Shown: positions 5,278 through 16,732, counted from the first letter of the stretch. The stretch is 44,094 nt of DNA from Paracoccaceae bacterium (GCA_030625695.1 DAOUQK010000002.1:1-44094), one strand, 5' to 3'. Notes: a model not told the origin generated them from the sequence alone. Made by a program: numbers and translations.

Positions 5278-6195
5278 ATGACCCAACCCCGATCCTTTCA
5301 GGAGATCATCCTGGCGCTGCAATCTTACTGGGCCTCCCAGGGCTGCGCGCTTTTGCAACCGTATGACATGGAGGTCGGGGCAGGCACGTTCCATCCGGCC
5401 ACCACCCTGCGGGCTTTGGGGCCGGTCCCGTGGGCCGCGGCCTATGTCCAGCCGTGCCGTCGCCCCACCGATGGGCGGTATGGCGACAGCCCGAACCGCT
5501 GGCAGCATTATTATCAGTTTCAGGTGATCATCAAACCCAGCCCGCCGGATTTGCAGGATCTGTATCTGGGTAGTCTGAAAGCCATCGGCATCGACATGGG
5601 TGCCCATGATATCCGTTTTGTCGAGGACGATTGGGAAAGCCCTACCTTGGGGGCTGCCGGTCTGGGATGGGAGGTTTGGTGCGATGGCATGGAAGTGTCG
5701 CAATTCACCTACTTTCAGCAGGTTGGCGGCTATGATTGCGCGCCGGTTTCGGGCGAGCTGACTTATGGGCTTGAACGGCTGGCGATGTATGTGCTGGGTT
5801 ATAGCGACGGCAACAAGATGCCGTTCAACGATCCCGACGCGCCGATCCCGCTGACGTACGGCGACATCTTTCGCGACGCCGAAGCGCAATATGCCCGCTG
5901 GAACTTTGACGTGGCCGAGACCGACACCTTGTTGCAACATTTCATCGACGCCGAAGAGGAATGCGCGCGCATTCTGGAGCAACCCGCCGATGACCCCAAA
6001 ACCGGGCGGCGTATTGTCATGGCGCAACCGGCCTATGACCAATGCATCAAGGCCAGCCACATCTTCAACCTGCTCGACGCACGCGGGGTGATCTCGGTGA
6101 CGGAACGCCAGGCCTATATTGGCCGGGTGCGCGCCTTGGCCAAACAATGCGCCGATGCCTGGCTGCAAACCGAAGCCGGAGGGTTCGCGCCATGA
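5278..6195 (+). CDS. glyQ: Glycyl-tRNA synthetase alpha subunit
   Basis: [49 protein letters not shown]..., canonical GlyQ. Confidence 0.98.
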
Positions 6196-6731
6196 AAGGC
6201 AATGTGACCGGTAAACTGGTGGCTGGCGTGATCCTGTTGCTTGGCCTCGTGGCCGGCGTTTCGATCTATTACCTTCAGGTCTATCACTATTACCGCGACA
6301 TTCCCGCCACCGGGGCGCAGGATGTGACGCTGATCACCCTGGCGGACGGCACATCCCAACCGATTGAACATGTCGGTTTTACGGCAATCGACGCCGACAG
6401 TTCGCCAATCCGCTATCGCGCCTGTTTCACCACGTCCCTGACCCCCGATCAGGCAAGCACGCTGTATGTCCCGGCTCCGGGCATTGAACCGCGCAATGCG
6501 CCGGGTTGGTTCGATTGCTTTGACGCCAATGATATTGCGGCGGCGATAGATGACGGCACTATGACCACCTTCCTCAGCACCAAGAACTATGCTTTTGGCG
6601 TTGACCGTATCGTTGCCATCGGCGCGGATGGTCGTGGGTTCATCTGGCCGACGCTGAACGAATGCGGCACCAAAGCTTATGACGGCACGCTGGTGGGCGA
6701 AGAATGTCCGCCGCGACCGGTCAGCGAATGA
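6192..6731 (+). CDS. Membrane-anchored hypothetical protein (DUF6446-like), overlaps the glyQ stop by 4 bp
   Basis: ATG at 6192; N-terminal [38 protein letters not shown]...; position between glyQ and glyS. Confidence 0.7.
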
Positions 6732-7998: not shown

Positions 7999-10242
7999 AT
8001 GCCCGATTTGCTGATTGAACTGATGAGCGAAGAAATTCCGGCACGGATGCAGAACCGCGCCGCCGAAGACCTGAAAAAGCGCGTGACCGATGGATTGGTC
8101 GAGGCCGGCCTGACCTACGGGGCTGCGCATGGCGCGTCCACCCCACGCCGCCTGACATTGGCGGTCGAGGGTTTGCTGGCCGCGTCACCGGATGTGCGCG
8201 AGGAACGCAAAGGCCCCAAGGTGGGCGCGCCCGACAAAGCCATCGAGGGGTTCCTGCGCGGCGCAGGGGTAGCGCGCGATATGCTTGAGGAACGCGACAC
8301 GCCCAAGGGTGCGGTGTACTTTGCGACCATCGAAAAGCCGGGGCGGGCGGCGGCGGATATTGTTGCTGAGGTGTTGGAGCAGGTGGTGCGCAATTTTCCC
8401 TGGCCCAAGTCGATGCGCTGGGGCACCGGCAGTTTGCGCTGGGTGCGGCCTTTGCAGTCGATCCTGTGTATTCTCAGCGATGAGGCCGGGGCCAGTGTGG
8501 TGCCCTTGGAGATTGATGGGATTGTTGCGGGTGACCAAACACAGGGTCATCGGTTCATGGCCCCTGCGGCGTTTTCGGTTGTTTCGTTCAACGATTATGA
8601 GGCAAAGCTAAAGCAGGCCAAGGTGATCCTGTCCCCTGCCGAACGGGGTGATCACATCCACGCCGAGGCGGTTAATCTGGCCTTTGCCGCCGGGTTGGAG
8701 CTGGTTGAGGACAAGGGGCTTTTGGCTGAGGTGGCCGCGCTGGTGGAATGGCCTGTGGTGCTGATGGGGCAGATCGGCGCGGATTTTCTGAGCCTGCCGC
8801 CCGAAGTCTTGCAAACCTCAATGCGCGAACATCAAAAATTCTTTTCACTGCGTGACAAGGCGGGCAAGATCACCCGGTTCATTACGGTGGCAAACGTCGA
8901 AACGCCCGATCAGGGCGCGTTGGTTCTTGCGGGCTATGAAAGCGTTCTGTCGGCCCGCCTGGCCGATGCGCGGTTTTTCTGGGACAATGACCTGCGGGTG
9001 GCCACGTCTGACATGAATGTCTGGACCCAGGCGCTTGAAAACGTGACGTTTCACGGAAAACTTGGCTCGCAAGGCGAGCGTATCCGGCGGATCGCGGCGC
9101 TTGCTCGCGAACTGGCCCCGGTGTGCGGCGCGGATGCGGATAAGGCCGAGACAGCGGCATTACTGGCCAAGGCTGATCTTAGTTCCGAGATGGTTTATGA
9201 ATTCCCGGAACTTCAAGGGGTTATGGGACGGTATTACATCGAAGCCTCTGGGCAGGATGCGGAAATTGCCGCCGTTGCAGAGGAGCATTATTCGCCGCTT
9301 GGGCCATCGGATGATGTGCCCTCTGCGCCATTGTCGGTTTGTGTGGCACTGGCGGACAAGCTGGACACCTTGACCGGATTTTGGGCAATTGATGAAAAAC
9401 CGACCGGATCAAAAGACCCATTTGCTTTGCGGCGGGCGGTTTTGGGGGTGATCCGATTGGTCCTGAGCAACGATCTGCGTCTACCGCTGGATCAATATGT
9501 GGACCGGCAACTGCTGCGCCACAAAATCCAGCTGAATGGGGACGCGGACGAACAGGATCTGGCCGCTCTGCGCGACATTCTGGCGGAAATCGCCGAGCAT
9601 GGCGTGTTTGGCGCGGCTGTGCAAACGGTGATGGACAAGCTGCGCAACGAAGAACAACCGGAGATGAAAGAGGGGTCGCTGCTGCGTACGATTGGCGATT
9701 TGGTGCCAGACCTTTCAACGGATTTGTTGGTGTTTGTTCATGACCGTCTAAAGGGTTTTCTGCGTGATCAGGACGTCCGTCACGATATCATCGATGCCTG
9801 TATTGCCATGCCTGGCAACGACGACCTGAACCAGTTGGTAAAACGGGCGCGGGCATTGGCGGGGGCTTTGGAAACCGACGACGGGGCCAATCTGGTGCAG
9901 GGCTTCAAGCGGGCCAATAACATTCTGGCCCAGGCCGAGGAAAAAGACGGGGTTGAATATTCTTACGGCGCGGATGTGAAATTTGCCGAGACTGATAGTG
10001 AAAAGGCGTTGTTTGCGGCGTTGGAGGCGGGCGAGCCGAAGATTGAAGCGGCGTTGAAGGCCGAAGACTTCACCACAGCGGTCAGCGAAATGGCGGCGTT
10101 GCGCCCCAGTATTGATGCGTTCTTTGAGGATGTTAAGGTTAATGCCGACAGCGAAGTTCTGCGTCGTAACCGGTTGAACCTGCTTAATCATGTGCGCAAG
10201 GCTTGCGGGCAGGTGGCCGATCTGACGCGGATCGAAGGGTAG
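7999..10242 (+). CDS. glyS: Glycyl-tRNA synthetase beta subunit
   Basis: MPDLLIELMSEEIPARMQNRAAEDL..., 747 aa, canonical GlyS. Confidence 0.98.
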   Translation: MPDLLIELMSEEIPARMQNRAAEDLKKRVTDGLVEAGLTYGAAHGASTPRRLTLAVEGLLAASPDVREERKGPKVGAPDKAIEGFLRGAGVARDMLEERDTPKGAVYFATIEKPGRAAADIVAEVLEQVVRNFPWPKSMRWGTGSLRWVRPLQSILCILSDEAGASVVPLEIDGIVAGDQTQGHRFMAPAAFSVVSFNDYEAKLKQAKVILSPAERGDHIHAEAVNLAFAAGLELVEDKGLLAEVAALVEWPVVLMGQIGADFLSLPPEVLQTSMREHQKFFSLRDKAGKITRFITVANVETPDQGALVLAGYESVLSARLADARFFWDNDLRVATSDMNVWTQALENVTFHGKLGSQGERIRRIAALARELAPVCGADADKAETAALLAKADLSSEMVYEFPELQGVMGRYYIEASGQDAEIAAVAEEHYSPLGPSDDVPSAPLSVCVALADKLDTLTGFWAIDEKPTGSKDPFALRRAVLGVIRLVLSNDLRLPLDQYVDRQLLRHKIQLNGDADEQDLAALRDILAEIAEHGVFGAAVQTVMDKLRNEEQPEMKEGSLLRTIGDLVPDLSTDLLVFVHDRLKGFLRDQDVRHDIIDACIAMPGNDDLNQLVKRARALAGALETDDGANLVQGFKRANNILAQAEEKDGVEYSYGADVKFAETDSEKALFAALEAGEPKIEAALKAEDFTTAVSEMAALRPSIDAFFEDVKVNADSEVLRRNRLNLLNHVRKACGQVADLTRIEG

Positions 10243-10287
10243 GGCGCGCTTTCTTTCGAAGGACGGTGGGCAAATTGCCCACCCTAC
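10239..10287. repeat. GTAG REP-like pair (left unit degenerate; right unit GGTGGGCAAATTGCCCACC-CTAC at 10265-10287)
   Basis: 10265-10287 is the exact reverse complement of the 23-mer at 2186-2208. Confidence 0.75.
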
Positions 10288-10316
10288 GGGGGCTTGCGCG
10301 TTTGTGTAACCGGCCT

Positions 10317-12911
10317 ATGCTGCACTTGCAGAAAGACAAGGAACAGCAGCTCGTGGACGCCTCAGTTCAGAATGACCCGAATGTGACATTGATTACCGCC
10401 GACGCGCCGGTCGATGCCTCGACCCACGGCGGGCGGGCCAAGTGTTTGCAACGTCTGGTGCGGCTTGACCTGCCGGTGCCGCGTACCGTCGCCCTGTCGT
10501 TTGAAGCAGTGCATGCGCTGGCAAATGGCGACATGCCGGACCTTGAAGCGATTGTCAGTCAGTTCGAGCCGGGGTCGTTGTTATGTGTGCGCCCCTCGTC
10601 CGAGGACCCGGATTGGGGCGGCCCCGGTGCGGTTCTGAACATTGGTATGAATGATGCGCGTCATAAGGAACTATGCGCCAGGATGGGGGACGAGGCCGCC
10701 AGTGCGTTGTACTTGCGGTTTGTTCAGTCTTACGCGACCCATGTGGCGCGGCTTGACCCGGATGAATTTGATCTGGAGGGCGAGGATAACGACCTGTCCC
10801 GCACCCTGCACGCCTATAAGGAAGAAGCGGATGAGCCGTTTCCGCAGGACCCGGCACAGCAATTGGCCGGGGTTTTACTGTCAATGGCGCGGGCCTGGGA
10901 AGGGACAACTGCGCGACTGTTACGGCAAGCCAAAGGCGCGCCTGCCGATGCGGGGTTGGGCCTTGTGGTGCAGGAAATGATCCTCGGGATGGGGCAGAAT
11001 TCGGAACTGGGGGAATGTGGTTCTGGCGTGTTGCAACTGGTCAACCGATCGACTGGCATGCCACAGGTCACCGGGCGTTATCTGAGCCAGTCTCAGGGGC
11101 GGGATGCTTTGGGGGCCGGGGCCAAGGCGTTATTCCTGGAAAGCGACGCACGCGGTAAGGCGCTGGAAGATGTGGCACCCGAAGCGTTTTCAGCCCTTAA
11201 GGTTCACGCCGCCTTGATGCGCGAGAAACTGCGCGAAGAGATGCAGGTCGAATTTGTGATCGAGGCCGGTCAGGTGCATTTGCTGGACGGCGTGCGGGTG
11301 GCGCGGTCGTCGCGCGCGGCTGTGCGCATTGCCGTGCGTCTGGCCCAAGACGGCATCATCACCCAGCAAGAGGCAGTGATGCGGATTGATCCGCATTCGC
11401 TGAACGAACTGCTGCACCGTCAGATTGACCCCGAGGCACCCCGCGACGTGCTGGCCACCGGTATTGGTGCCAGCCCCGGGGCCGCGACCGGTAAGATCGT
11501 CTTTACCGCCGCCGAGGCGCAGGCGGGTGCGGCGCGGCGCGAGCCATGCATATTGGTGCGTCGTGAAACCTCGCCCGAGGATATTCGTGGTATGCACGCC
11601 GCAGTAGCTGTGCTGACCGAACGGGGCGGGATGACCAGCCACGCGGCGGTGATTGGCCGGGGCATGGGGCTGCCTTGCATTGTCGGCGCGTCTTCGATGC
11701 GGTTTCAGACCCGCGACCGCAAGCTGACGGCCCCGGATGGGCGGGTCCTGAAAACCGGCGATATCATTACCGTTGATGGTACATCCGGTCAGGTCCTGGC
11801 CGGCGAGCCAGAGATGATCGAGGCCGCACTGGACGATGCGTTCCAGACCCTGATGGGCTGGGCTGATGATGCGCGCGACATTGATATTCGCGCCAATGCT
11901 GATACCCCCGCTGACGCGCAATCTGCGCGCAATTTCAACGCTCAGGGCATTGGGTTGTGCCGTACCGAACATATGTTCTTTGATCCCGCCCGTCTGGTGG
12001 TAATGCGCGAAATGATCTTTGCCGAAACGTCTCAGGGGCGCGCCGCCGTGCTGGAACGCCTGTTGCCGATGCAACGCGAGGATTTCATCCAGCTTTTCAG
12101 TATTATGCAAGGCCAGCCGGTCTGCATCCGCCTGTTTGACCCGCCGTTGCACGAATTCCTGCCTGCCACCCGCACTGGTCAACGCGAGTTGGCCGAGGCG
12201 CTAAACCTGTCCTTAAGCGACGTGACCCGCCGGGTCGAGGCGATGGGTGAATATAACCCGATGCTGGGTCTGCGCGGCGTCCGCCTTGGCGTCACCGTGC
12301 CCGAGATTTACGACATGCAGGCCCGGGCAATATTCGAGGCGGCGTTAGAGGCGAGCACGCCCGAACATCCGGTGGTGCCGGAAATCATGATCCCACTGGT
12401 CAGCGCACGGCGCGAAGTTGAACTGGTCAAAACCCGTATTGATGCGGTTGCGGCCTCGGTCAAATCCGAGCAAGGCAAGGACGTTGAATTTCGCCTTGGT
12501 GTCATGGTCGAAACCCCGCGCGCCGCGTTGCGTGCGCATGAAATCGCACCCTATTGCGAATTCCTCAGCTTTGGCACCAATGACCTAACGCAGATGACCT
12601 ATGGATTGTCGCGTGACGATGCCGGGCGGTTCATGTCCGACTATGTGCGTCAGGGGGTTTTCCCGGAAGATCCGTTTCATGTGCTGGACGTTGAAGGCGT
12701 CGGTGAGTTGCTGAAATTAGGCGCAGAGCGAGGCCGCGCCGGGCACGAGGGAATCACCCTGTCAATTTGCGGCGAACATGGTGGCAATCCAGAGTCCATT
12801 GCCTTTTGTCGCGATGCCGGATTCGACTATGTATCCTGCTCGCCGTTCCGGGTGCCCGTGGCGCGCCTGGCTGCGGCGCAATTGGCCATTTCACACAACA
12901 TCGGCGGCTAA
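10317..12911 (+). CDS. ppdK: Pyruvate,phosphate dikinase / PEP synthase-like protein
   Basis: PEP-mobile domain GGMTSHAAVIGRGMGLPCIVG, C-terminal EFLSFGTNDLTQMTYGLSRDDAGRF and SICGEHGG; start ATG 10317 chosen because the upstream part of the ORF overlaps glyS and the REP. Confidence 0.88.
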   Translation: MLHLQKDKEQQLVDASVQNDPNVTLITADAPVDASTHGGRAKCLQRLVRLDLPVPRTVALSFEAVHALANGDMPDLEAIVSQFEPGSLLCVRPSSEDPDWGGPGAVLNIGMNDARHKELCARMGDEAASALYLRFVQSYATHVARLDPDEFDLEGEDNDLSRTLHAYKEEADEPFPQDPAQQLAGVLLSMARAWEGTTARLLRQAKGAPADAGLGLVVQEMILGMGQNSELGECGSGVLQLVNRSTGMPQVTGRYLSQSQGRDALGAGAKALFLESDARGKALEDVAPEAFSALKVHAALMREKLREEMQVEFVIEAGQVHLLDGVRVARSSRAAVRIAVRLAQDGIITQQEAVMRIDPHSLNELLHRQIDPEAPRDVLATGIGASPGAATGKIVFTAAEAQAGAARREPCILVRRETSPEDIRGMHAAVAVLTERGGMTSHAAVIGRGMGLPCIVGASSMRFQTRDRKLTAPDGRVLKTGDIITVDGTSGQVLAGEPEMIEAALDDAFQTLMGWADDARDIDIRANADTPADAQSARNFNAQGIGLCRTEHMFFDPARLVVMREMIFAETSQGRAAVLERLLPMQREDFIQLFSIMQGQPVCIRLFDPPLHEFLPATRTGQRELAEALNLSLSDVTRRVEAMGEYNPMLGLRGVRLGVTVPEIYDMQARAIFEAALEASTPEHPVVPEIMIPLVSARREVELVKTRIDAVAASVKSEQGKDVEFRLGVMVETPRAALRAHEIAPYCEFLSFGTNDLTQMTYGLSRDDAGRFMSDYVRQGVFPEDPFHVLDVEGVGELLKLGAERGRAGHEGITLSICGEHGGNPESIAFCRDAGFDYVSCSPFRVPVARLAAAQLAISHNIGG

Positions 12912-13005: not shown

Positions 13006-13013
13006 CATTTTGC
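13006..13013. repeat. Left 8-bp target site duplication CATTTTGC
   Basis: Identical to 15960-15967, exactly abutting the terminal inverted repeats. Confidence 0.9.
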
Positions 13014-13032
13014 GGTAGTGGGTCACTTTGAA
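13014..13032 (+). repeat. Left terminal inverted repeat
   Basis: GGTAGTGGGTCACTTTGAA. Confidence 0.9.
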
Positions 13033-13090
13033 ATATGACCCCATGCAGCTTTGATTTGCACCGGATCGCATCTATCCCTATCTTATACAT

Positions 13091-13312
13091 ATGACAGACA
13101 AACCCAAGAGACCCAGAGACGCCAACCAGCTTGCCCATATGATCGCAGGCATTGCTACTGGTGACGATGTGAAGCACGAGCCTGATACGTCAGGGCAGCG
13201 CAAGGGCGGACTTAAGGGCGGCAAGGCAAAAGCGCAGTCACTAACGCCTGAACAGCGATCCGAAGCTGCTCAGGTCGCCGCCGCCGCGCGTTGGAAGAAG
13301 TCGGACGATTAA
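13091..13312 (+). CDS. Small basic passenger protein (73 aa; GGLKGGKAKAQSLTPEQRSEAAQVAAAARW motif)
   Basis: ORF inside the element; Ala/Lys-rich motif seen in proteins often annotated histone H1-like or RNA-binding. Confidence 0.65.
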   Translation: MTDKPKRPRDANQLAHMIAGIATGDDVKHEPDTSGQRKGGLKGGKAKAQSLTPEQRSEAAQVAAAARWKKSDD

Positions 13313-13794
13313 TCGTCCGTAAGTTCATCTTCCGCATCTGCTGCGTGCTTACGCAATTCGATATCAAAGCCAAAGTCAAAATCGAGTTGGATTTCTTCTT
13401 CGTCTCTGTGACGAGAGTTCCAGTGGTCGGAGTCGTAACTCAACTGCAACCCGTCGCCCACCATCTGCTCTCGTCGCAGGTTGAGAGATTTGATCATCAT
13501 ATTGCGTGGCGCTTCGTCAATATCAACCCAGACGAACAACGATTGCTGGCCCTGCTTGATCGGTATTGCGTGATTTACGCGATATGGCCGTCCGGTATCT
13601 TCATCGTGTTTGATTTCGTCCCGTGCGGCGCGAGATAACTCTTGCGCAAGAACGTCCAATGGGTCTTTGGGGACGGGCATTTCCCAACCCATTAGTTCAG
13701 CAAATTTTGCGACCTTCTTCATATCGACTTGGATTTCGCCAGTCTCATCTTTGTAGTGGCGAATAAGACGTTGTAGGTCTTTTTTCTTACTCAT
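13309..13794 (-). CDS. Passenger hypothetical protein (161 aa), likely co-operonic with the upstream HTH-ImmA/IrrE gene
   Basis: ORF 14 bp downstream of 13809-14954 on the same strand; acidic segment DEEEIQLDFDFGFDIE. Confidence 0.75.
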   Translation of the reverse strand: MSKKKDLQRLIRHYKDETGEIQVDMKKVAKFAELMGWEMPVPKDPLDVLAQELSRAARDEIKHDEDTGRPYRVNHAIPIKQGQQSLFVWVDIDEAPRNMMIKSLNLRREQMVGDGLQLSYDSDHWNSRHRDEEEIQLDFDFGFDIELRKHAADAEDELTDD

Positions 13795-13808
13795 GGTGGT
13801 AGCCCCTT

Positions 13809-14954
13809 TTAATTGGCATCTGTAGGGGCAACATCACCCCATCCGTCCGTGACGGCATTTGGCGTTACGATTGAGCGCACTGGAACAAGGTGATCGCGCG
13901 CGAGGTGATATTTTTGGGTTCTGAATTGAAGTTGGCCCGCTACTAAGCCTGTGTGGACTTTTAGCATCCGAGCTAGACCAATGATGTCGCGCAAGGCGAA
14001 GATAGGAGATTTGCGGGAAATAAATGCGTCCATCATTTTCTTTGGAACGCAAAACTCTGAGGCAGCGGTATTCGCTCGCGCTTCTTGGTCAATAAGATCT
14101 TGCGTGACCTGTGCTGCCTCACCAGAATTGATATCAACATCGAGCATCATTTCTTTAAGTCCGTCACGATTGTTGACATGTTCAAGTTCGTGTCGAAGGA
14201 CAAAAACAAAATTGTCTATCCGGTCAAAACGCATTGTCATACCTATGACTGGCGAGTTCTCATCAAGCCAAAAACAAACGCCGTCGATCTTTGTGGATGG
14301 CAGTGCTTCAACGATCACGAAGCGAATGCCAGCTTCTGCAAGAATGCGGGGGACTTTGCGGAGTTCTTCGGCAGAGTGAATGAGTGTCTTGATCTTCGAT
14401 ATTGCCGACTTCACTGATGCGGGCGAATACCGCGCGACCAGCATCTCGGATGCGAGGGTTTTAACTCTGTAGAGCCAAGCTAGTTGGGCTGGCGTTGCCG
14501 CGATGCTGACCTCTGTTTTCTTGGATGCATGAGGGAGGGTTTCAATGTCTTCGAGGCGATTTGCTTGGAAAAATTGAAGCAGAGATTCCTCTACGTTCTC
14601 AATATCTTTGACGGACGTGGCGTCCAACCATCCCCGCTTAATCATCGCACTAATAGGTAACTTCCCTATCAATTCAGCCCGCATTTGCCGCTTTGGGTTT
14701 GGTGTGCTTTCTATGCGTGCGACTGCTAGATCATAAGTCTTTTGTAAAAACAAAAATCTCTCTGCGGGGACGCCGAATACTTCCTCAAAAATAATTGCTG
14801 TATCAGCATCGACCTTTCTTACATTGGATGTTGTCTTACTGATGATGGACTCGTCCATACCAGAAATGATTGCCAGCGTTCTTTTGGTCCAGCCCCGCTC
14901 TGCGAGTAATGCTGTAACCAGTTGTCCCGGTGATTTATATTCTTCACTGCTCAT
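13809..14954 (-). CDS. HigA-like XRE-HTH domain fused to ImmA/IrrE-family metallopeptidase
   Basis: N-terminal HTH (YKSPGQLVTALLAERGWTKRTLAIISGMDESIISKTTSN), C-terminal HEXXH (FVLRHELEHVNNRDG). Confidence 0.82.
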   Translation of the reverse strand: MSSEEYKSPGQLVTALLAERGWTKRTLAIISGMDESIISKTTSNVRKVDADTAIIFEEVFGVPAERFLFLQKTYDLAVARIESTPNPKRQMRAELIGKLPISAMIKRGWLDATSVKDIENVEESLLQFFQANRLEDIETLPHASKKTEVSIAATPAQLAWLYRVKTLASEMLVARYSPASVKSAISKIKTLIHSAEELRKVPRILAEAGIRFVIVEALPSTKIDGVCFWLDENSPVIGMTMRFDRIDNFVFVLRHELEHVNNRDGLKEMMLDVDINSGEAAQVTQDLIDQEARANTAASEFCVPKKMMDAFISRKSPIFALRDIIGLARMLKVHTGLVAGQLQFRTQKYHLARDHLVPVRSIVTPNAVTDGWGDVAPTDAN

Positions 14955-15033
14955 AATCCCGTATAGATCGGCTTAACTTTATGGGCAATAGGGAATGTGC
15001 GATAAATCGCAAACTTACTAAAAATGCTTGACT

Positions 15034-15050
15034 GGCGGTCACTTTGAAAC
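15034..15050 (+). repeat. Internal copy of the element's left-end sequence (GGCGGTCACTTTGAAAC)
   Basis: Shares GGTCACTTTGAAA with the left TIR at 13014-13033; lies just upstream of the transposase start. Confidence 0.7.
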
Positions 15051-15062
15051 TAAGTTGAGTTT

Positions 15063-15950
15063 ATGAGAAAACTCGACACCAAAACTCGCGCCCTGATCAT
15101 CCGCCTTCTGGTGGAAGGTAATAGCATCCGCGCCACATCACGCATTGCGGACGTATCCAAGAACACCGTCAACAAGTTGCTGATCGACGCAGGCAAGGCT
15201 TGCGCCATGTATCACGACGAGAATGTGCGCAACGTCAAAGCGTCTGTGATCCAGTGCGATGAAATCTGGTCGTTCACCTACGCCAAACAGAAGAACGTCA
15301 AGACCGCCAAGGCTGCGCCAGAAGACGCTGGCGACACTTGGACGTGGACTGCAATCGACAGCGACAGCAAGTTGATCGTGTCCTACATGGTTGGTGGCCG
15401 TGATAGCGAATACGCAATCGAATTCATGGATGATCTGCGCGCCCGCCTGTCCAACCGGGTCCAACTGACCACAGACGGGCACAAAGCCTATCTGGAAGCC
15501 GTAGAAGGCGCGTTTGGTGGCGACGTGGACTATGCCCAACTGATCAAGATGTACGGCAACACACCGGGCGGAAAAACACACGAAAAGAAGTATTCGCCAG
15601 CCGAATGCACTGGCACCAAAAAGCGGACCGTGGAAGGTCGCCCAGACAAGGCCCTGATCAGCACGTCATATGTGGAGCGTCAGAACCTGACCATGCGGAT
15701 GCACATGCGTCGGTTTACCCGCCTGACCAACGGTTTCAGCAAGAAGGTTGAGAACCACATGCACGCGGTTGCGCTGCATTTCATGTATTACAATTTTGTC
15801 CGCATTCACCAGACGTTGAAGGTTACACCGGCAATGGCGGCTGGCCTGACTGACCATCTTTGGGATATTTCTGATCTGGTTGCGTTGATCGACGCGAACG
15901 AATCGGCCCCCAAGAAACGCGGACCCTACAAGAAGCGAAATTCAAAGTGA
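15063..15950 (+). CDS. IS1-family-like DDE transposase
   Basis: ASVIQCDEIWSFTYAKQKNV, LTTDGHKAY, FMYYNFVRIHQTLKVTPAMAAG; N-terminal HTH (NSIRATSRIADVSKNTVNKLL). Confidence 0.88.
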   Translation: MRKLDTKTRALIIRLLVEGNSIRATSRIADVSKNTVNKLLIDAGKACAMYHDENVRNVKASVIQCDEIWSFTYAKQKNVKTAKAAPEDAGDTWTWTAIDSDSKLIVSYMVGGRDSEYAIEFMDDLRARLSNRVQLTTDGHKAYLEAVEGAFGGDVDYAQLIKMYGNTPGGKTHEKKYSPAECTGTKKRTVEGRPDKALISTSYVERQNLTMRMHMRRFTRLTNGFSKKVENHMHAVALHFMYYNFVRIHQTLKVTPAMAAGLTDHLWDISDLVALIDANESAPKKRGPYKKRNSK

Positions 15951-15959
15951 CCCACCACC
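15941..15959 (-). repeat. Right terminal inverted repeat
   Basis: TTCAAAGTGACCCACCACC, reverse complement matches the left TIR at 18/19. Confidence 0.9.
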
Positions 15960-15967
15960 CATTTTGC
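15960..15967. repeat. Right 8-bp target site duplication CATTTTGC
   Basis: Identical to 13006-13013. Confidence 0.9.
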
Positions 15968-16072: not shown

Positions 16073-16732
16073 ATGATTCGTTATCTGATCGTTCTCGCGA
16101 TCTTGCTGGGCGGCGCTGTGCCGATTGCAGGGTACGCACAATCGACTCAGGCCTCTGTGTCTGTGTCTGTGTCGGCTCAATCCGAAAAAGCCAAAACCCG
16201 GGGTGGGTTTTTCAAGGCGGTGCTGGTCAAGACCGGTATCATTCCCAAACCGCCGGTGAAGGTCAGTTTCAGCCGCGCCTGGGTTGATGCCCAACCCGAG
16301 CCGGAAGGCGACGAACAGTGGAGCTGCCTGTCCGAAGCGTTATATTTCGAGGCGCGTGGCGAGACTGTCAAAGGCCAGTTTGCCGTAGCCGAAGTGATCA
16401 TGAACCGGGTGAAAAGCAGCCGCTTTCCCGAAACCCTGTGCGGGGTGATCAATCAGGGGACGGCATCAGGGCGCAAGTATCAGTGTCAGTTCACCTATAA
16501 TTGCGATGGCTATAAAAACGTAATCGCCGAGCATCAGGCGTATGAGCGGGTGTCAAAAGTGGCGCGCGCCATCATTGACCAGGCCGAAGGGTCGGGTGCA
16601 TTGACCGGCGGGGCAACACATTACCATACCTCAGCCGTTAGCCCGGCGTGGTCGCGTATCTATAAAAACACGGCGCGCATTGGGGTGCATCTGTTTTATC
16701 GTCACAACTATCGAACAGCCAATAACGATTGA
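16073..16732 (+). CDS. SleB-like cell wall hydrolase
   Basis: CLSEALYFEARGETVKGQFAVAEVIMNRVKSSRFPETLCGVINQG...CQFTYNCDG...THYHTSAVSPAWSR. Confidence 0.88.
   Translation: MIRYLIVLAILLGGAVPIAGYAQSTQASVSVSVSAQSEKAKTRGGFFKAVLVKTGIIPKPPVKVSFSRAWVDAQPEPEGDEQWSCLSEALYFEARGETVKGQFAVAEVIMNRVKSSRFPETLCGVINQGTASGRKYQCQFTYNCDGYKNVIAEHQAYERVSKVARAIIDQAEGSGALTGGATHYHTSAVSPAWSRIYKNTARIGVHLFYRHNYRTANND

Follow-up and report, generated by a model that had tools for sequence, protein, structure and literature searches.

The question raised by the locus at 13006-15967 is whether the genes lying beside an IS1-like transposase gene moved together with it as one unit and, if so, whether that unit is an isolated case or one member of a family. 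The window, that is, the whole stretch of DNA analysed, comprises 44,094 nucleotides from a Paracoccaceae bacterium. The initial annotation had proposed an intact IS1-like element with near-perfect 19-bp TIRs, an 8-bp TSD around the whole 2.95-kb unit, three passenger genes and a predictable empty site; the features as now delimited are listed in Table 1. The left (IRL) and right (IRR) TIRs were found to be identical at 18 of 19 positions, exact copies of CATTTTGC abut both outer ends, and the 2.9-kb element between them (13014-15959) has intact ends and a full-length transposase. When related genomes were searched, a natural empty site was recovered where it had been predicted: the joined flanks align unbroken (85%) to the same-genus genome G110, in which the locus is uninterrupted and holds a single CATTTTGC, followed by CTAAAACTGGACC (context ...ATTACCACCATTTTGCCTAAAACTGGACC...). 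Because the TSD lies outside the cargo and an empty site exists, the cargo moved together with the transposase, which is the criterion for a tIS. One copy is present in its own genome (assembly 76% complete). Away from the empty site, the related genome also retains a short stretch of a decayed transposase from this family (G110:C21:17463-17576; 66% identity, one stop). GC content is 57.4% in the window, 50.4% in the element, 48.1% in the cargo at 13309-14954, 58.1% in the small gene and 54.2% in the transposase gene, so that the AT-richness earlier ascribed to 13091-14954 is clear in the two-gene cargo but does not extend to the small gene. The element is flanked on the left by a gene (10203-12911) that, from its translation, we take to be pyruvate-phosphate-dikinase-like and on the right by a small gene (16073-16732) that, likewise from its translation, is presumably wall-hydrolase-like.

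Table 1. Features of the element, in coordinates of the window
Feature	Position	Strand	Basis
Left TSD, CATTTTGC	13006..13013	.	Sequence; one copy in G110 empty site
IRL, 19-bp TIR, GGTAGTGGGTCACTTTGAA	13014..13032	+	TIR type common to 44 unique bounded relatives
Leader, presumed small-gene promoter P1	13033..13090	+	Promoter inferred from position only
Small core gene, 73-aa protein, KGG/ARW	13091..13312	+	44/44 TIR-bounded elements; 69/76 viral-contig loci
Cargo gene 2, 161-aa partner, third-gene position of PD-lambda-2-like operons	13309..13794	-	Neighbourhood
Cargo gene 1, 381 aa, HigA-type HTH + M78 (ImmA/IrrE) metallopeptidase, PD-lambda-2_B-like	13809..14954	-	Profiles
Transposase promoter region P2	15010..15056	+	Sequence
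IS1-like transposase, 295 aa, single ORF, D66-D138-E205	15063..15950	+	Pfam, NCBIfam, alignment
IRR, 19-bp TIR, TTCAAAGTGACCCACCACC, overlaps 3' end of transposase gene	15941..15959	-	Sequence
Right TSD, CATTTTGC	15960..15967	.	Sequence

Assignment to the IS1 type, as originally suggested, agrees with the 8-bp TSD and with a transposase score of 35 bits against Pfam PF03400 (cut-off 24.1); the score against the NCBIfam IS1 model NF033558 is 65 bits, under its cut-off of 100. The residues D66, D138, and E205 are invariant across 17 relatives. IS1 anatomy comprises an insA/insB' frameshift pair; here there is one open frame, and overlapping ORFs with a programmed frameshift are absent. Since single-ORF relatives of IS1 exist, the missing pair does not bar membership, and, judged by its sequence, the transposase is a divergent, single-frame branch of the IS1 type. 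A search of a phage collection returned one distant match as the sole relative.

Relatives were collected by transposase from one genome per species, plasmids, and viral contigs (IMG/VR). Forty-four unique elements could be bounded at both ends from sequence alone, 32 of which have an exact 8-bp TSD, nearly all differing in sequence. A wider TIR search brought in another 6 whose duplication is exact (L140, L052, L103, L101, L113, and L118), and viral contigs yielded 26 more unique elements with a duplication. An 8-bp TSD was present at the outer ends of about 60 relatives, which shows that transposases of this family act, or have acted, on the outer 19-bp TIRs to make 8-bp duplications, so that the whole unit, cargo included, moves. 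Further elements with the same two borders and different TSDs, which the earlier reading had proposed to look for, were found, and L044 and L122 share the cargo type between the same TIRs. The relatives fall in Rhodobacterales, Rhodospirillales, and other Alphaproteobacteria, Chromatiales (Gammaproteobacteria), Oligoflexia, Pyrinomonadaceae (Acidobacteriota), Chloroflexi, and Elusimicrobia as well as on plasmids and IMG/VR contigs; many are MAGs, so single taxonomic placements can be wrong. They share one layout: IRL is followed by the small gene at the left end, promoter, transposase gene, and IRR make up the right end, and the cargo lies between. Most elements are 2-4 kb long, with 0.2-2.5 kb of cargo. 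An element of 1323 bp with an exact 8-bp TSD (L176:4518-5840) holds a (partial) small gene and the transposase with little room for cargo and is possibly a minimal or deleted form. On an Acidiphilium plasmid (L141), the annotation places a toxin-antitoxin pair of the RES-domain/Xre type (5383-6221) immediately past the transposase, at the right border of the element.

Of the three genes first counted as passengers, the two cargo genes retain that status, whereas the 73-aa gene is part of the core. Its protein carries the motifs KRPRDANQLA..ATG and KGG..GGKARA..R..IA..AA.ARW, and each of the 44 relatives with independently set ends has a homologue, as do 69 of the 76 loci on viral contigs that offer at least 3 kb upstream. 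Most loci without it are those whose transposases are the most divergent and whose TIR differs; L059 and L065 are the exceptions in the first (non-viral) set. These distant viral-contig elements (L216, L218-L220, and L224) form a related group with TIR GGTAGTGGGCTACTTTGAA, 8-bp TSDs, and no detectable small gene. Among distant IS1 transposases used as outgroups (Sphingomonas and Deinococcus; 26-30% identity), no annotated small gene was evident, as far as annotation goes. With a profile of the small protein, only 19 matches (E<=1e-6) were obtained from 298 family genomes; the 8 matches without a neighbouring transposase were fetched, and in 7 of them the left TIR adjoins the small gene. One of the 7 is an element cut by a contig end: in G195, L228 and L007 are the parts, on separate contigs, of a single element and have the TSD GGATATCG in common. 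Presence in all bounded elements rules out the small protein as a passenger, and the scarcity of matches together with the left TIR at transposase-less loci does so for a general chromosomal gene; the protein belongs to the left end of the element. It is presumed to be a DNA-binding regulator or an accessory to transposition; its structure model is poor (pTM 0.32).

Several observations concern the surroundings of this gene. Its KGG/ARW motif recurs at the N-terminus of P63C cargo proteins (PF10546; L049:3896-4873, L064:3800-4942, L056:634-1683, and L103:3850-4935), and a match to phrog_2384 falls in that stretch as well; element and cargo may thus have in common a domain for interaction or DNA binding. 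An extra ORF of ~50-85 aa lies between the leader and the small gene in L122, L034, L139, L141, L110, and L050, often overlapping the small-gene start codon, and forms a second variable slot; it is absent from the window element and present in L122 despite near-identical cargo. Where the small gene and the cargo gene converge, their stop-codon ends overlap by 4 nt (13309-13312 in the window), as they do in many elements, also with unrelated cargo types (M78, Fic, and cl8). The shared motif and the phrog_2384 match would also suit an antitoxin, or a part of each cargo module rather than of the transposition module, but one small-gene family occupies the left end whatever the cargo, and the left TIR stays beside it where no transposase was found, which makes such a role unlikely.

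Within the cargo, the M78 protein scored 22.6 bits against Pfam PF06114 (cut-off 22), 30.7 bits against NCBIfam TIGR02607, under its cut-off of 47.7, and 2.8e-40 against the PADLOC model PDLC03982 (PD-lambda-2_B), of which it covers positions 134-387 of 402; this last match bears out the earlier suggestion of a TA/defence-type cargo. Its HELEH motif is intact at residue 255, and no sequence relatives were found in the PDB. Homologues of the 161-aa protein always adjoin an M78 gene. It was modelled at pLDDT 86 and had no fold match at E<=0.001, no Pfam profile match, and no PADLOC model below E 0.01. In PD-lambda-2 (PMC9519451), the order of the three genes is HigB-like, HigA-type HTH + peptidase, and a third protein related to a P4 antitoxin; toxicity was seen with the M78-bearing protein and was relieved by the HigB-like one. 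A HigB-like ORF was sought between 14954 and 15063 and none was found; the gene is present in other elements (e.g. L033, PF05015), and the full HigB / HigA-M78 / third-protein order occurs in L033, L048, L052, L062, L091, and L115. Because the window cargo lacks the HigB-like gene of Escherichia coli PD-lambda-2, a defence function is unsure. A HigB / HigA-M78 / ~161-aa operon without this transposase was found on a Paraburkholderia plasmid, so the module also exists outside the element. Passenger genes without the TIR/TSD structure had been named in advance as evidence against joint movement; the plasmid operon goes part of the way towards this, but the TSD and empty-site evidence at the present locus stands.

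To survey cargo across the family, the longest cargo ORF of each of 127 elements was compared with 118 flank ORFs chosen by the same rule. The 127 main cargo ORFs fall into about 48 unrelated clusters, a single HTH-M78 cluster accounting for 41 and singletons of no known function, some of which may be spurious, for about 36. PADLOC matches at E<=1e-8 were obtained for 46 of 127 cargo ORFs and at most 4 of 118 flanking ORFs (Fisher p 2e-11), a comparison to be read with the caution that PD-lambda-2_B and RmrA are one HTH-M78 superfamily and that in GC-rich DNA the longest ORF may be spurious, among cargo and still more among flank ORFs. The matches comprise PD-Lambda-2_B (22), RmrA (19-20, with RmrT partners where scanned), SoFic (3), and PDC-S13 (2); Pfam adds P63C (11), nSTAND1/AAA ATPases (6-7), Panacea (5), SDH protease (5), Fic (3), and Bro-N (2). 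The cargo of the family thus appears to consist mostly of toxin-antitoxin or phage-defence genes. M78/ImmA proteases cleave the repressors of ICEs and phages, and the size of the HTH-M78 cluster could accordingly be taken to mean that the cargo regulates the element, the HTH-M78 protein acting as an ImmA-like anti-repressor that triggers transposition on stress. This is judged quite unlikely, as two thirds of the elements carry unrelated cargo with no M78, the M78 proteins found here match PD-Lambda-2_B or RmrA, the latter with its RmrT partner, and HigB-M78-partner operons occur without the transposase.

The promoter regions contain candidate regulatory sites. P2 consists of TTGACT (15028-15033), a 17-bp spacer, and TAAGTT (15051-15056), the spacer containing a TIR-like 13-mer, GGTCACTTTGAAA (15037-15049), that copies the TIR core exactly, and an imperfect inverted half-site, CAAACTTAC, lies at 15010-15018. 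The stretch TGCTTGAC is kept in the transposase promoter about 33 bp before the start. A TIR core (at least 10 of 12 positions) was found in P2 of 11 of 44 elements (shuffled mean 0.2) and the inverted half-site (at least 8 of 9) in 16 of 44 (shuffled mean 0.8), and this type of P2 characterizes the subgroup of the window element. A distant subgroup has instead the palindrome ATGCTT-N6-AAGCAT, which the window does not contain and which is present in P1 of 12 and P2 of 11 of 41 elements (shuffled, 0.3 and 0.1) and in 3 of 395 interior windows; as shuffling ignores shared ancestry, all these counts show conservation and not independent origin. The recurrence of such sites suggests that one element-encoded protein may control both promoters, those of the small gene and of the transposase. 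The exact core copy, with its counterparts in the 11 elements, could also mark the degenerate ancestral IRL of a compact IS1-like element (~15034 to IRR) lying beside the cargo, the outer IRL having been co-opted. That arrangement is improbable. TSDs lie at the outer and not the inner ends, both at this locus and in about 60 relatives; the GGTAGTG tip of the outer ends is missing from the internal copy; and this copy sits in register between -35 and -10, often with an inverted half-site, so that an operator is the simpler reading. No compact 0.95-kb relatives with a TSD at the internal site were seen, the shortest exact-TSD element being the 1323-bp L176, which still matches the small gene. 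The internal site may nevertheless be the evolutionary origin of the present layout.

Cargo and transposase histories were then compared. Transposases 97% identical occur with unrelated cargo in one MAG (L050/L051), for which gene conversion of the transposase gene could be an alternative cause, and at least six cargo types were found on closely related transposases. Distances between transposases correlate with those between small proteins (Mantel r 0.31, p 0.0005) but not with those between M78 proteins (r 0.05, p 0.28; 14 elements). Cargo types are spread over the transposase tree nearly as if their labels had been shuffled: for 13 types on 74 transposases, 44 changes are required, against a minimum of 12 and a shuffled mean of 52.2. 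Because 0 of 200 shuffles were as low as 44, cargo labels do cluster, weakly, as expected if a cargo stays with a lineage for a short while before another takes its place. In elements that differ in cargo, similarity of the DNA extends through IRL, leader, and small gene at the left end, the first 47-85 bp being conserved, and resumes on the right about 38-50 bp before the transposase start, whatever the cargo; these limits define the borders of exchange. Identity of the left and right blocks is often unequal (78-83% and 91% in L050/L051), which is expected if elements recombine with each other. Together, these data show that turnover of the cargo between the small gene and P2 is much more frequent than the transposase lineage predicts. 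That the locus is a plain IS1-like element which picked up a passenger once, by chance, would fit its single copy and the passengers known from tIS of several IS families (PMC7986276; PMC5704250), but it is very improbable and was rejected on the family-wide census, in which the same layout and core gene recur in 44 bounded relatives and, beyond these, in dozens of others from different phyla, with at least six cargo types on closely related transposases.

We therefore regard the locus, with considerable confidence, as a complete IS1-like cargo transposon (tIS) belonging to a family in which the ends are fixed and the cargo can be exchanged. The layout of the family is IRL, P1, an optional small ORF, the small core gene, a cassette with 1-4 cargo genes in either orientation, P2, the transposase gene, and IRR. 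Transposition would proceed by an IS1-type DDE mechanism. The cargo would be a PD-lambda-2-like TA/abortive-infection module (HTH-M78 and partner, without the HigB-like first gene) that may stabilize the element by addiction, defend the host or a prophage against phage, or both. The TIR-like half-sites or ATGCTT-N6-AAGCAT in P1 and P2 may be operators that limit expression, with the transposase and/or the small protein as candidates for binding them, and cassettes would be exchanged by recombination between co-resident elements through their conserved ends. A bolder proposal, possible yet doubtful, is that of a cross-phylum class of minimal "defence-cassette" transposons in which IRL with the small protein and P2 with transposase and IRR form a fixed chassis, cassettes are swapped at defined borders, and the small protein is active in cassette exchange or co-regulates both promoters.

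In a literature search outside of which most subscription papers lie, no description of an IS1-like family built in this way was found, and the family is widespread and apparently undescribed. Few known carriers of interchangeable TA/phage-defence modules would be as small as this element, whose ends can be mapped. Owing to those ends, defence genes can be found between IRL-small gene and P2-transposase rather than by guilt by association; candidate defence/TA systems include P63C, the cl8 family, and a three-gene DUF6941 operon.

The family shares with IS1 the DDE transposase domain, GGT-tipped TIRs, and the 8-bp TSD and differs from it in the single 295-aa ORF, the second core gene, and 0.2-2.5 kb of cargo. 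Simple insertion sequences with passenger genes inside the TIRs are known as tIS in the IS1595 family (tISSag10/MTnSag1 and tISCpe8; PMC5704250; PMID 19286454) and the IS6 family (ISDsp3; PMC7986276), whose transposases belong to other families; in the tIS literature found, neither family-wide turnover of defence/TA cargo nor a universal small second gene was described. PD-lambda-2 and RmrAT, as modelled in PADLOC, share with the present cargo an HTH-M78 protein and a partner, but the window copy lacks the HigB-like gene of PD-lambda-2 and its partner falls outside the PADLOC models. Tn3-family transposons also contain TA pairs, probably for maintenance (PMC7157771), but have a large TnpA, a resolvase, and 38-40-bp IRs, and their TA genes are part of the transposition module, whereas here TA/defence genes are the variable part. 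Tn7-like transposons likewise carry varied defence systems (PMC8649781), but by multi-protein, targeted transposition and with large cargo, in contrast to one transposase and mostly 2-4 kb here. Cargo change, usually studied in integrons and Tn7, becomes testable in a simple, one-transposase element.
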